Origin: an uncultured Sphingomonadales bacterium
Lineage (GTDB): Bacteria > Pseudomonadota > Alphaproteobacteria > Sphingomonadales > Sphingomonadaceae
DNA length: 55,941 nucleotides
Reading direction: 5' to 3'
Assembly (NCBI GenBank): GCA_903868245.1
Contig: CAIPUN010000064.1
Location: 1-55,941, forward strand
A program made the translations under genes and the position numbers. Below, one piece after another: positions 21,618 through 36,314 of this stretch. Within the stretch, counting starts at the first letter, position 1; each line of letters opens with the position of its first letter. The notes beneath the pieces were generated by a model. It had not been told where the DNA came from. It was given only the letters and a program-made list of their open reading frames with translations, and made no database searches.

Positions 21618-22292
21618 CTAAGCCGCCGCGCGCTTGGTCAACACCTTGTTAATCACATCGGCGAAGGTCTCGGCACTTTGCGCGCCGGGAACCATATATT
21701 TCTGATCGAAGATGATTGCGGGAACGCCTGTGATATTCTGGTCGGTCCAATGCGTCATTTCTGCGCGCACGCTGGCCGTGAGCGCGGCATCGTTGATCCA
21801 TGCCAAAGCCACGGCGCGCTCCATGCCTTGCGCCTCGGCAATGTCACACAGAACGTCAACATCGCTCACATCGCGGCGGTCCTGAAAATAGGCGGTGAAC
21901 AATGCCATTTTCAGTTTTGTCTGCGCGCGCCATCCGCGTTCGCTGCCAAATATGGTCAGCAATTTATGCGCATTGAAGGTGTTATATATGCGCATGCCCT
22001 CGCCATAGTTGAACGCGAAGCCGACATTATTGCCAATGTTGGACAGCCGGCTCCGATTGGCGCGGCTTTGTTCAGGCGTGCTGCCATATTTGCGCGCGAT
22101 ATGCGCGGCGGTATCTTCGCCTTCGGGCGGCATGTTCGGGTTCAGTTCGAACGGATGCCAATAGGTTTCGGCGGCAATGTCTTGACCAACAAGCGTCAAC
22201 GCTTTTTCCACCTGTTTCAGGCCAATGATGCACCAGGGGCATACCACATCCGACACGATGTCGATGCGCAACGGCACCGCATCGGCCGTCAT
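21618..22292 (-). CDS. DsbA family oxidoreductase (FrnE-like)
   Basis: RIDIVSDVVCPWCIIGLKQVEKAL (CPWC) ... WHPFELNPNMPPEGED. Confidence 0.92.
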   Translation of the reverse strand: MTADAVPLRIDIVSDVVCPWCIIGLKQVEKALTLVGQDIAAETYWHPFELNPNMPPEGEDTAAHIARKYGSTPEQSRANRSRLSNIGNNVGFAFNYGEGMRIYNTFNAHKLLTIFGSERGWRAQTKLKMALFTAYFQDRRDVSDVDVLCDIAEAQGMERAVALAWINDAALTASVRAEMTHWTDQNITGVPAIIFDQKYMVPGAQSAETFADVINKVLTKRAAA

Positions 22293-23158
22293 TGCGACAC
22301 CCAATGGCGCAGCAGGCTATGCGCAATTGCAAAGGGTGGCGGCGCATTGAAACGGCGGTCGGTCTCGCCCTTCAGAGCAGCCATCGCCTCGGCTTTCGTC
22401 ACCCACATCGCATCTTCAATCTCGTCAGTGTCGAGCGTGAGTGCATCGTCCAACGCATCAGCGGTGCAGGCAATCATCAATTGCGAACCGCCAAAGGGCC
22501 AAGGCTGGCTGGTGACATAGCGCACCGCGCCGCAGGTCACGCCTGCTTCTTCATGAATTTCGCGGCGAACGGCCTCTTCAATGCCCTCGCCAGGTTCCAA
22601 AAAGCCCGCCAGCGCGGAATAATTGCCCGGCGGAAAGCGGGATTGCCGCCCGACCAGCGCCTTGCCCTCAAATTCGGCGAGCATGATGACCACAGGATCC
22701 GTGCGCGGAAAATGTTCTTTCTGGCAATTGCCGCATTTGCGGCCCCAGCCTGCGCGGAACAGCACCGTCGCCGCGCCGCAGCGTCCGCAGAAACGATGGC
22801 CATTATGCCATTCAATCAAGCTGCGCGCGGTGCCGTATATCGCGGCGTCCTCGGCGGGTAGCATCGATAAGGCACGCCAGATAGCAGGCGAACGAAACGC
22901 GTCCCCCGCGGCATCCACTAACGCGACAAAATGCGGCTTTCCATCGGATAGGCCAAGCAGGATGAGCTCTTCTGAACCTTCAAGCTCGGCCAAAGAATGC
23001 CAGTGTAAGCCGCCTGCGTCGTTGACCCGCGGATCGAGTCCGTCAAGCCCCAACACCCGCGCGCGCCAGTCCCCCAGCAGCAGGCCATAAGCCTCTGCAT
23101 CATTGCGGACGCGGTCAGCGCGGTCGAGCGGTGAACCCGTAAAAGCTGGAGCCATCAT
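22289..23158 (-). CDS. nudC: NAD(+) diphosphatase (Nudix)
   Basis: Zinc cysteines FCGRCGAATVLFRAGWGRKCGNC, Nudix box GFLEPGEGIEEAVRREIHEEAGV, SQPWPFGGSQLM; start at MMAPAF preferred over TTG at 23191. Confidence 0.94.
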   Translation of the reverse strand: MMAPAFTGSPLDRADRVRNDAEAYGLLLGDWRARVLGLDGLDPRVNDAGGLHWHSLAELEGSEELILLGLSDGKPHFVALVDAAGDAFRSPAIWRALSMLPAEDAAIYGTARSLIEWHNGHRFCGRCGAATVLFRAGWGRKCGNCQKEHFPRTDPVVIMLAEFEGKALVGRQSRFPPGNYSALAGFLEPGEGIEEAVRREIHEEAGVTCGAVRYVTSQPWPFGGSQLMIACTADALDDALTLDTDEIEDAMWVTKAEAMAALKGETDRRFNAPPPFAIAHSLLRHWVSQ

Positions 23159-23174
23159 CGGATCAGACACCAGA

Positions 23175-23273
23175 TCAAGCTGGTAAACCAAGGTCCTTCA
23201 GGACCCAATTGGCGAAGTCTGCGTGGAAGGGATAGACATTGCTCGGCATATATTGCGCCATGCAGACGGCCCG
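23175..23273 (-). pseudogene. Detached C-terminal remnant of the serine hydrolase, in the same frame after the amber codon
   Basis: After TAG the frame reads RAVCMAQYMPSNVYPFHADFANWVLKDLGLPA then TGA (23175-23177), 16 nt before the nudC start. Confidence 0.7.
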
Positions 23274-24476
23274 CTATTTGCTTCTTGGATCGACAAACGC
23301 CACCGTGCCCGCGGCACCACCCCAGCCGAACACGCCCGCATTCACGCCCTTGCCGACCCGGCCACCCGCACCAAAGCCAGCGCCTTCGGCGAACGTGCCA
23401 TCAGTTGTAACAGCGGACGGTAGCAAATCAGACATGGCGAGTTTGGCAGCCGCCGTTGACATGATGCGGACGCCATCCAATTCACCATAATTAGCCAACA
23501 TGTTGAGGAATCGGTCATAATCGCGCGCGGACGCCACCATGCCAGCGCCGCCAAAGGCAAAGGCTGGTTTATCGAGGTAAATGCTGGTCGACGCGGGATC
23601 GATCGGGAACAACACGCCGTTAACGGGCGCGTAATTGGACACGAAGCGCTTGGTTTCCGACTTTGGCACTTGGAAATAGCTGCTGGTCATTTTCAGCGGC
23701 TCAAAAATGCGCGTCTTCAAAAAGACCTCAAAATCCATGCCGCTGGCAACTTCAATCACGCGACCCAGCAAATCGAGCGAGATAGAATAGCTCCATTTTG
23801 TCCCCGGCTCGGCCATCAATGGCAGCTTTGCCAGCCTTTCGGAAAATGTCTTGAGATCAGGGGTCGGCGCGCTTGCCGCCTGACCAGGAATGGGAAAGCG
23901 GCTGACGATGCCCGGCGTGATACCATTGTCGAGATAGGCCTGAAGCAATGGGCCTTTGGTAATGATGGAATATCCAAGCCCAGCGGTATGGGTCAGCAAA
24001 TGGCGAAGTGTAATCTGCGTCTTGGCGGGCACCGCATCCAGACTTTTGTCCGGGTCGGTCAGCACGGTCATATTGGCAAATTCTGGCAGGAAATCGGCAA
24101 TCGGTTGATCGAGCTTCATCTTGCCTTCGTCTACAAGGATCATCGCGGCGATGCCGGTGACAGGCTTTGTCATCGAATAAATGCGCCACAATGTGTCAAT
24201 ATTCACAGGCGTGGTTTCGCCCAGTCCTTGTGTACCAACAGCGACGACATCGGGCATGCCGGCTGCACGACCAATGGTGGCGAGAACACCGGGGAGCTTT
24301 CCTGAAGAGACATAGCTTTCAAACTGCGTCCGGATGGTCGGATATAATTCGGCCGCCTGCGCCCAAGCGCGCGCGGGCGCAAATGCGCTTATGGCGCCCA
24401 TAGCCGCTAATTGGCCGCCCCATGCCAAAAACCCGCGCCGACCAATCATTGCCTGTTCGCTATTCTGCATATTCAT
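23274..24476 (-). CDS. Serine hydrolase, class C beta-lactamase/esterase type, apparently truncated by an in-frame TAG
   Basis: Tat-like signal (RRGFLAWGG), SMTK (SxxK) and YSIS motifs; ATGA overlap with mutY stop; ends at TAG 23274-23276. Confidence 0.88.
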   Translation of the reverse strand: MNMQNSEQAMIGRRGFLAWGGQLAAMGAISAFAPARAWAQAAELYPTIRTQFESYVSSGKLPGVLATIGRAAGMPDVVAVGTQGLGETTPVNIDTLWRIYSMTKPVTGIAAMILVDEGKMKLDQPIADFLPEFANMTVLTDPDKSLDAVPAKTQITLRHLLTHTAGLGYSIITKGPLLQAYLDNGITPGIVSRFPIPGQAASAPTPDLKTFSERLAKLPLMAEPGTKWSYSISLDLLGRVIEVASGMDFEVFLKTRIFEPLKMTSSYFQVPKSETKRFVSNYAPVNGVLFPIDPASTSIYLDKPAFAFGGAGMVASARDYDRFLNMLANYGELDGVRIMSTAAAKLAMSDLLPSAVTTDGTFAEGAGFGAGGRVGKGVNAGVFGWGGAAGTVAFVDPRSK

Positions 24477-25549
24477 ACTTTTCCCCCTGCGCCTAATACC
24501 GCTTCTGCTGCTTTTCTGAATAGGGTCGGCAGACCAGCCTTGTCGAGCGATTTTAGTGGCCACCATTCGCCTGCATCGGGGTCATCTGCGTCCGCTGGCC
24601 ATGCCGTAACGGCAATATCGAGAAGCAGCGAAAAATGGGTAAAAACATGCGACACTTGGCCGGGCAATTTTCGCCATTTGGCAGGGATAGGCGGCGTCTT
24701 ATGGCCATCCAATCGGGCGGTCCATTGATCATCGGGCAAAGCGCGCATACCCGCCAAAAGGCCTTTGTCGTCGCGGCGCACCAACCAGACATGCGCATCC
24801 CGCTGTATCCAATAAACAGTACCCGTGCGCTGCGGCTTGGCGGCCTTGGGCGTTTTGGCGGGATAGATTTCGGGATTTCCAAGACGCTTGGCATCGCAGG
24901 CAAAGGCCAGCGGGCACAATTGGCAAGAGGGTGTGCGCACCGAACATATGCCCGCCCCTAAATCCATCATCGCCTGGGCAAAGTCGCCTGCGCGGCTGTC
25001 GGGTGTAATGCTGTCCATCGCGTCTCGAATGAGCGGCTTTGAATGCGGCAAGGGCGTCGCAATTGCAAATAGCCGGGACACAACGCGCTCGACATTGGCA
25101 TCAACGACAACCGCTCTTTGCCCGAATGCAATCGCGGCGATGGCAGCCGCGGTATAGGGGCCGATACCCGGCAATTTCAGCAACGCTGCCTCGGTCTCTG
25201 GCAAACGACCTGCATGCGCCGCCACCACAACCCGCGCGCATTTCAACAAATTGCGCGCGCGGGCATAATAGCCAAGGCCAGCCCATGCCGCCATGACATC
25301 GGCATCATCCGCCGCCGCCAATGCGGTAAAGTCCGGCCAAATCTGGGTAAACTTGCGAAAATAGCCTCCCACCGCCGCGACCGTCGTCTGCTGCAGCATG
25401 ATTTCCGACAGCCAGACATGATAGGGGTTGGCAAAGCCTTGCCCCGGCGCTGTGCGCCAAGGCAGTGTCCGAGCATGCTGGTCATAATGTGCAAGCAAGG
25501 CCTGCGCGATATCCCCAGATTTATCGATGGCTTGTTGGACGGATGGCAT
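24473..25549 (-). CDS. mutY: A/G-specific adenine glycosylase
   Basis: YHVWLSEIMLQQTTVAAV, LPGIGPYTAAAIAAIAFGQ, VVDANVERV, 4Fe4S cysteines CSVRTPSCQLCPLAFAC; start uncertain. Confidence 0.95.
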   Translation of the reverse strand: MPSVQQAIDKSGDIAQALLAHYDQHARTLPWRTAPGQGFANPYHVWLSEIMLQQTTVAAVGGYFRKFTQIWPDFTALAAADDADVMAAWAGLGYYARARNLLKCARVVVAAHAGRLPETEAALLKLPGIGPYTAAAIAAIAFGQRAVVVDANVERVVSRLFAIATPLPHSKPLIRDAMDSITPDSRAGDFAQAMMDLGAGICSVRTPSCQLCPLAFACDAKRLGNPEIYPAKTPKAAKPQRTGTVYWIQRDAHVWLVRRDDKGLLAGMRALPDDQWTARLDGHKTPPIPAKWRKLPGQVSHVFTHFSLLLDIAVTAWPADADDPDAGEWWPLKSLDKAGLPTLFRKAAEAVLGAGGKV

Positions 25550-25571
25550 GATAAATGGCATGTATCAGGGG

Positions 25572-33528: not shown

Positions 33529-34664
33529 CAGCTCTCATCCTCCTCTTCACGGCCAACCAGATCAAGCGCACGCGCTTTCAATTGGTGCAGCTCACACCAG
33601 CGACCAAGCGCATCGGTTCGGCCATGGGTGATCCATGTTTCGCTGGGCCGAAGTTCCAACAATGTGTCGGTCAACTCGTTCCAATCGGCATGGTCTGAAA
33701 TGACCAAAGGCAGTTCAACATTACGCTGCCGCGCACGTTGCCGCACCCGCATCCATCCCGATGCCATGGCGGTTATCGGGTCAGGTAGACGTTGCGTCCA
33801 ACGGTCATTCATCGCCGATGGCGGCGCAATGACAATCGCGCCTTTCATCTCGGCCTTGGCAAGTCCCGTCGCCAATATGAGCTCACCCAAAGTGACATTA
33901 TGCGCCGCATAGAGATCGCACATTTTCTGCATCGCGCCGTGGATATAAATGGGCGCATCATAGCCCGCACGCCGCAGTTCTGCGATGACGCGCTGCGCCT
34001 TGCCCAACGCATAGGCCCCTATCAATATGCACCCATCGACATTGGCTTCGCGTGCGGCGAGCAATTTGGCAATCTCATCCTCAATCGGCGGATGGGTAAA
34101 GACGGGCAAGCCAAAGGTCGCCTCGGTAATAAGCACATCGCAAGGCACGGATTCAAATGACGCGCAGGTTGGGTCGAAACGCCGTTTATAATCGCCGGTC
34201 ACGACCACCCGCTCGCCCGCATGTTCCAGCAGGATTTGTGCGGAGCCCAAAACATGTCCGGCAGGGTGAAAGCTGATCTTCACACCATTTGCTTCAAACC
34301 CGTCGCCATAGGGCATGGGCGTGCCTGTGTCGGTGCCATAACGCAGCGCCATGATCGCCAGCGTCTCTGGCGTCGCCCAAACGGCTTTATGACCACTGCG
34401 CGCATGGTCGGCATGACCGTGCGTCACCAACGCGCGTTCGACGGGACGGGACGGGTCAATCCACATGTCCGCTGGCTTGACATAAATGCCATGCGCATGT
34501 GGTTCTATCCAATGTTGGGCGGCAGTTCTGGAGATTATAACGGTCCTTTTCTGAGGCCCGATATGGGGTGCAGCGCCGACGATGTAAACCAATCGCAGGG
34601 CTGCTGATTTATAATGTTGATGCGCAGGCGGCGTGCATAATTTTCTATTGTACCGTCCAGACAC
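33528..34664 (-). CDS. DNA ligase-associated DNA exonuclease (metallo-beta-lactamase/beta-CASP type)
   Basis: ALVTHGHADHARSGHKAVWATPETLAIM, FHPAGHVLGSAQILLE, VVTGDYKR; 1-nt overlap with ligase; true start is downstream of the ORF start, before HWIEPHAHGIYVKPADMWIDP. Confidence 0.9.
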   Translation of the reverse strand: MSGRYNRKLCTPPAHQHYKSAALRLVYIVGAAPHIGPQKRTVIISRTAAQHWIEPHAHGIYVKPADMWIDPSRPVERALVTHGHADHARSGHKAVWATPETLAIMALRYGTDTGTPMPYGDGFEANGVKISFHPAGHVLGSAQILLEHAGERVVVTGDYKRRFDPTCASFESVPCDVLITEATFGLPVFTHPPIEDEIAKLLAAREANVDGCILIGAYALGKAQRVIAELRRAGYDAPIYIHGAMQKMCDLYAAHNVTLGELILATGLAKAEMKGAIVIAPPSAMNDRWTQRLPDPITAMASGWMRVRQRARQRNVELPLVISDHADWNELTDTLLELRPSETWITHGRTDALGRWCELHQLKARALDLVGREEEDES

Positions 34665-34851
34665 GCTATATGCGGGCGAAACATTTTTTCAGCATTTTGA
34701 CCTGTCATGGCTGCATTATATTGACGTGATGGTCTTTCTGCTGGTTAGTTCGATGCTGATGGCGCTGGCGGTCAACCGTCTGGTTTTCGGCAACCGCGCG
34801 ATATTGATAATTTCAAGGGAGGAGCGCGCATTCCGCGCGGCAGAAGCATGA
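34633..34851 (+). CDS. Small putative membrane protein, coupled to glpK
   Basis: 72-aa ORF (GTG), one TM helix around YIDVMVFLLVSSMLMALAV; ATGA overlap with glpK. Confidence 0.55.
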   Translation: MHNFLLYRPDTLYAGETFFQHFDLSWLHYIDVMVFLLVSSMLMALAVNRLVFGNRAILIISREERAFRAAEA

Positions 34852-36314
34852 GCGAATATATACTGGTCATTGACGAAGGCACGACATCAACGCGCGCCGT
34901 TTTATTTGCAGCAGACGGGACCGCCGTCGACAGTTGCCAACGCCCGCTTACGCAGCATTATCCGCAACCTGGCCTTGTCGAACATGATGCCGAGGAAATT
35001 TGGAACTTAACGCTTGCCTGCGCGCAAGAAATGGTCGCCAAAGCTGGCGGTGCGGACCGGATCGCAAGCATTGGCATTACCAATCAGCGCGAGACCGTGG
35101 TGTTCTGGGACAAGCGCACCGGCAAGCCGCTTGCCCCAGCTATTGTATGGCAGGACCGCCGGACGGCGGACATGTGTGCCGCGATGAAGGCGCAAGGCGA
35201 AGAGCCAGTGGTTCAAGCGAAAACCGGATTGTTGCTTGACCCATATTTCTCAGGCTCAAAAATCGGTTGGGCGCTCGAAAATTGGCCGCAGTTGAAGGAC
35301 GCAGGCGCACATCTGGCGGTAGGCACGATCGAAAGCTACCTTGTCTATCGGTTGACCGGCGGAAGCCATATCAGCGACGCCAGCAACGCCGCGCGCACCG
35401 CGCTCATGGCGATTGGTAGCGGCGGATGGGATGACGGGTTGATGGACCTGTTTGGCGTTCCAAGAGACATCTTACCGGAGATCACCGATTGCGTAGGCGA
35501 TCTTGGCACGACCTTGCCGGAGCATTTCGGCGGCGCAATCCGCATATCGGGTATGGCGGGGGATCAGCAAGCCGCCACCATTGGGCAAGGTTGCTTTGCC
35601 GTGGGGCAAACCAAGGCAACCTTTGGCACGGGCGCGTTTGTCCTGACGCAAACCGGCACGACATTGCGCCAATCGCGTCACCGCTTGCTGTCGACGATTT
35701 TGTACCAGTTAAATGGCGAACGTCATTATGCGCTGGAAGGTTCGGTGTTTGTCGCGGGCAGCCTTGTTCAATGGCTACGCGATGATCTGGGCCTGATATC
35801 GCATGCCGCCGAAACGGAACCATTGGCGCGCAGCGTGCCAGACAATAACGGCGTTTATCTGGTGCCTGCGCTTTCGGGCCTTGGCGCACCGCATTGGCGG
35901 TCGGATGCCCGCGCCACGATCAGCGGTCTAAGCTTTGCCGCGACAAAGGCGCATGTTGCCCGCGCCGCGCTGGAGGCGATGGCGCACCAAACCTATGACC
36001 TCAAAACCGCCTTTGCCGCCGATGGTGCAGATTGGGCCGAATTGCGCATTGATGGCGGCATGGTCGCCAATGACTGGATGGCGCAAGACCTCGCCGATAT
36101 GCTGACGATTGACGTGGAAAGACCCGCTTTTGTCGAAACAACGGCGCTGGGCGCCGCGATGCTGGCGGCGGTCGGGTGCGGACTATTCCGCACCTTGGAG
36201 GATGCGGCCAGCATGCGGGGTGGGGTCACGCGTTTTGCGCCGATGCTTGACGCCGCCGCCCGTGAGGCCCGCTTGGCTGGCTGGGCGAATGCGCTTGCCC
36301 GCGTTCTACAATGA
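34848..36314 (+). CDS. glpK: Glycerol kinase
   Basis: ILVIDEGTTSTRAVLF, GITNQRETVVFWDKRTGKPLAPAIVWQDRRT, GMAGDQQAATIGQGCF, RIDGGMVANDWMAQ. Confidence 0.96.
   Translation: MSEYILVIDEGTTSTRAVLFAADGTAVDSCQRPLTQHYPQPGLVEHDAEEIWNLTLACAQEMVAKAGGADRIASIGITNQRETVVFWDKRTGKPLAPAIVWQDRRTADMCAAMKAQGEEPVVQAKTGLLLDPYFSGSKIGWALENWPQLKDAGAHLAVGTIESYLVYRLTGGSHISDASNAARTALMAIGSGGWDDGLMDLFGVPRDILPEITDCVGDLGTTLPEHFGGAIRISGMAGDQQAATIGQGCFAVGQTKATFGTGAFVLTQTGTTLRQSRHRLLSTILYQLNGERHYALEGSVFVAGSLVQWLRDDLGLISHAAETEPLARSVPDNNGVYLVPALSGLGAPHWRSDARATISGLSFAATKAHVARAALEAMAHQTYDLKTAFAADGADWAELRIDGGMVANDWMAQDLADMLTIDVERPAFVETTALGAAMLAAVGCGLFRTLEDAASMRGGVTRFAPMLDAAAREARLAGWANALARVLQ

Follow-up and report, generated by a model that had tools for sequence, protein, structure and literature searches.

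In the window, a stretch of 55,941 nt from an environmental Sphingorhabdus-type draft genome, a gene encoding a family VIII esterase carries an in-frame TAG. The gene order at this locus is an intact mutY-type A/G DNA glycosylase gene (24473..25558, minus strand), which lies upstream and overlaps the start of the esterase ORF, the esterase gene itself, an intact nudC encoding an NADH pyrophosphatase (22292..23158, minus strand) and then a DsbA-family gene. The truncated esterase ORF (23277..24476, minus strand) encodes 400 aa when counted from a conserved Met, the longest ATG frame starting at 24566. The TAG occupies codon 401 (23274..23276, minus strand) and is followed by a conserved continuation of 32 sense codons (23178..23273, minus strand) and by a TGA (23175..23177, minus strand) at the ancestral stop position common to relatives; the minus-strand frame reads ...GTVAFVDPRSK-TAG(23276-23274)-RAVCMAQYMPSNVYPFHADFANWVLKDLGLPA-TGA(23177-23175). 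The coordinates and peptides that an earlier reading of the letters alone (the sequence-only reading) had given around the two stops match the sequence and its translation. Its count of 32 removed codons is right for the sense codons that follow the TAG, but the ancestral protein of 433 aa loses 33 residues, that is codon 401 plus these 32. Owing to the TAG, the untranslated gap in front of the nudC ATG at 23158 grows from the 16 nt that separate it from the ancestral TGA to 115 nt.

The esterase matches Pfam Beta-lactamase (PF00144, 1.8e-56), and the match in the truncated ORF reaches residue 398. All four motifs listed for subfamily VIII.1 esterases (S-X-X-K, Y-X-X, W-X-G and G-G-X-G; PMC9795927) are present, namely the nucleophile motif S101-M-T-K104, which is conserved in the orthologs, Y230-S-I (in the context WSYS), whose catalytic Tyr is invariant, GGAG at 309-312, and W385-G-G replacing K-T-G. 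Searches with the intact ortholog gave family VIII esterases as the nearest solved structures (7pp3, 5.8e-55), and a fold search with its model also placed 7pp3 on top (Foldseek 2.9e-30, 30% identity); motifs and a fold extending over 400+ columns are shared with the VIII.1 carboxylesterases EH7 (PDB 7pp3), 4ivi, EstG (7u1b) and Est-Y29 (4p6b). Class C beta-lactamases (AmpC) resemble the window protein in fold, in S-X-X-K and through weak NCBIfam matches, but have Y-A-N and K-T-G in place of the VIII.1 motifs (PMC9795927), where the window has Y-S-I and WGG. Assignment to this class was rejected on these two motifs and on a bla_class_C score of 56.6 against a cut-off of 415, the NCBIfam class C and methyl acetate hydrolase models both scoring far under their cut-offs. 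The sequence-only reading had described a class-C-type serine hydrolase: an in-frame amber codon in such a fold is indeed present, but the protein is a family VIII carboxylesterase with VIII.1-like motifs and not a class C beta-lactamase. Its leader contains RRGFL, a twin-arginine-like stretch, and is predicted to resemble a Tat signal. A literature search found no publication on this esterase gene.

The gene was matched in all 45 genomes of the genus, and codon 401 was compared in two overlapping sets, one of 22 close relatives taken from public genomes and one of 29 same-genus orthologs. In every one of the 29 orthologs examined it is a sense codon, encoding Leu in 21 and Val in 8 (TTG in 16, GTG in 6, TTA in 3, GTC in 2, and CTA and CTG in one each), and the 22 close relatives likewise have a sense codon; the alignment called for by the sequence-only reading thus gives Leu or Val, mostly as TTG, as the expected residue. 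The codon reads TTG and TTA in the two nearest relatives, and since the nearest (96% protein identity) combines TTG with flanking codons identical to those of the window, a single T>A change (TTG to TAG) suffices. Almost all relatives end at the place of the window's ancestral TGA, mostly with ...LGLPA or a close variant, and the 32-residue tail is identical at 31 of 32 positions in the nearest relative, with 4 synonymous and 1 nonsynonymous differences. Because relatives encode the same tail, with mostly synonymous differences and a common end, the continuation is not a product of chance. Comparison of these sequences indicates that the TAG is a derived state and not the end of a natural short form, given the sense codon and continued frame in all 29 orthologs; the pattern is that of a lineage-specific nonsense codon, a derived stop with sense codons in all 29. 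A natural end shared with relatives and followed by no conserved frame, which would have spoken against this, is not what is found, as the 29 orthologs all read on.

Over the 400 codons that precede the stop, the window and its nearest relative are separated by 71.5 synonymous and 17.5 nonsynonymous differences (dN/dS 0.067), and the values for all pairs involving the window (0.046-0.089) are similar to those between relatives. These ratios indicate that this part of the gene is under strong purifying selection, from which it follows that any real loss would be very recent. No decay is seen over these 400 codons, neither a frameshift nor a second disabling lesion. Past the stop, K423N is the window's sole change at columns invariant in 21 relatives; the probability of its falling in the tail by chance is ca. 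6% (19 invariant columns in the tail and 275 in the body), which fits weakly with relaxed constraint.

Modelling of the nearest ortholog, which is intact (mean pLDDT 81.7), shows the missing part to consist of a strand (401-407) and a helix (417-429), in agreement with the last beta-strand and C-terminal helix named by the sequence-only reading. They are equivalent to beta11 and alpha11, the last elements of EH7, which there are part of the seven-stranded central sheet and of the helices that flank it (PMC9795927). The alpha/beta domain is complete in the orthologs, while the window product differs from them and from the VIII.1 esterases in lacking this segment. The model of the truncated protein has a lower overall confidence (75.7), with residues 51-80, an N-terminal helix and strands, falling from ca. 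89-95 in the intact form to ca. 70-72, a comparison that is indicative only as the two alignments differ in depth (32 vs 25 sequences). From these models, the core of the truncated esterase is predicted to be destabilised, and folding and activity would presumably be lost.

The genome bin amounts to 1.97 Mb, is split into 202 contigs and has a contamination of 4%. Contigs C44 and C198 (L170 and L177) overlap over 7 kb at 89% identity, the ends of C148 and C158 overlap at 94% with identical and divergent blocks alternating, and contig-end overlaps in general lie at 91-95%, further near-duplicate or overlapping pairs being L118/L176 and L166/L180. Contig pairs overlapping at 89-95% identity indicate a bin in which haplotypes or closely related genomes are mixed. 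Interior stops were surveyed in 664 kb of the bin against S. wooponensis (363 ORF matches, 121,008 codons), over-extended starts and wrong-frame ORFs being set aside by inspection; most other candidates were judged to be artefacts of these two kinds. Three genuine interior stops were left, and no frameshift was found among the 363 matches. Besides the esterase TAG, these are a TAG (L178:8517-8519) in an aldo-keto reductase gene at the end of contig C148, for which an intact second copy at the start of C158 (L203) has TAC within an otherwise identical block, and a TAA at codon 206 (L104:11472-11474; contig position ca. 31472) of a patatin-like/DUF3376 gene of ca. 780 codons on contig C9, intact in seven other related genomes. 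The esterase TAG lies mid-contig, and a search of the bin for a second copy of its locus found none. By inspection, no other interior stop or frameshift occurs in genuine genes among the conserved genes compared in the window. A generally high error rate of the contig is not supported, since base singletons in four adjacent genes (14 in the window) are about as many as in the nearest sister genomes (13, 12 and 15). At coarse resolution, local identity to relatives has no sharp chimera breakpoint at the TAG site.

Amber suppression, readthrough or recoding would allow the full-length protein to be made in spite of the TAG, an option raised by the sequence-only reading together with a search for a suppressor tRNA. 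The intact and conserved downstream frame and the presence of TAG in two of the three genuine interior stops are in its favour; any very recent mutation would, however, also leave the downstream frame intact, the third interrupted gene carries TAA, the residues replaced by TAG are not the same (Leu and Tyr) and no relative has TAG at codon 401. No tRNA with a CTA anticodon (CUA, reading UAG) was found among 34 tRNA genes, an incomplete inventory that also lacks the standard Phe, His, Glu and Ile tRNAs; for Leu, tRNAs with the anticodons UAA and CAA were both found. Far from being unused or depleted as a terminator, TAG ends 43 full-length genes, 22 of which also end with TAG in S. wooponensis, and serves this genome as an ordinary terminator, conserved in position. 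Recoding is disfavoured by this usage and by the failure to find a CUA tRNA, and production of a full-length protein by any of these routes is considered very improbable. Slightly less credible still is a genuine functional short form, another option of the same reading: every catalytic motif (SMTK, Tyr, WGG) precedes the stop and is so retained, and the Pfam match extends almost to it, but the last strand and helix are kept in every ortholog examined and in solved homologs, the 29 genus orthologs continue past Leu or Val, and the truncated form is modelled with lower confidence in its core. The least probable proposal is a natural amber-suppressing strain, in which the intragenic TAG codons of the esterase and aldo-keto reductase genes would be partly read through by a suppressor tRNA encoded in a part of the genome that was not assembled.

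A weightier alternative takes the TAG for an artefact of base calling or of the consensus, or for the base of a minority strain in a composite bin, the true gene being intact with its end at 23175. Spurious internal-stop pseudogenes are reported to arise from low coverage and low read quality (PMC11017572), and three nonsense codons with zero frameshifts in 363 ORF matches is what reads of low quality favour (PMC11017572). The fragmented and contaminated bin with its divergent overlapping contigs, the TAC facing the aldo-keto reductase TAG in the second copy, and an esterase gene otherwise free of decay all argue in the same direction. Against such an error stand the mid-contig position, the lack of excess singletons in the four adjacent genes, a locus with no second copy in the bin, and just two other true interior stops in ca. 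120,000 codons compared. This alternative is given a substantial probability, short of an even chance. Sequencing error and recent nonsense mutation had both been named as options by the sequence-only reading. Our preference, held with modest confidence, is that the nonsense allele is real and arose very recently by a single base change, in a family VIII esterase gene that is otherwise intact and constrained. The TAG codon itself is observed directly; that the base is real is what we infer, although there is a single observation of it, from a draft bin of mixed haplotypes in which a second copy contradicts the other interior TAG, and neither a frameshift nor a second disabling lesion backs decay of the gene.

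With a real nonsense allele, the ancestral Leu codon TTG would have been converted very recently to TAG by a single base change, and translation would stop at residue 400. The product would keep its catalytic residues but, having lost the central sheet's last strand as well as the C-terminal helix, would probably misfold or be degraded. If the enzyme is Tat-exported, as its leader suggests, the truncated product would probably not be exported, and the esterase gene would be functionally lost in this strain. Such a loss, if real, would have been caught very early, in a gene that each of the 45 genomes surveyed in the genus has kept. For annotation, the locus is best described as a possibly disrupted esterase gene, neither as a natural short esterase nor as a case of stop-codon readthrough. 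The feature is an ordinary one, a derived nonsense codon in the esterase gene of one draft genome; like the internal-stop pseudogenes, real or spurious, of bacterial assemblies (PMC11017572), it consists of one internal stop in a conserved draft-genome gene that is intact in all other respects, and nothing distinguishes it from them. Haplotype mixing in the bin bears on any other single-base claim made from this genome.

Finally, elsewhere in the window, the region 34467-34847 has no counterpart to a 750-aa ORF and smaller ORFs located there in S. wooponensis, where they sit between the genes corresponding to window positions 33531-34466 and 34848-36311; relative to S. wooponensis, this region is the site of a lineage-specific insertion or deletion.
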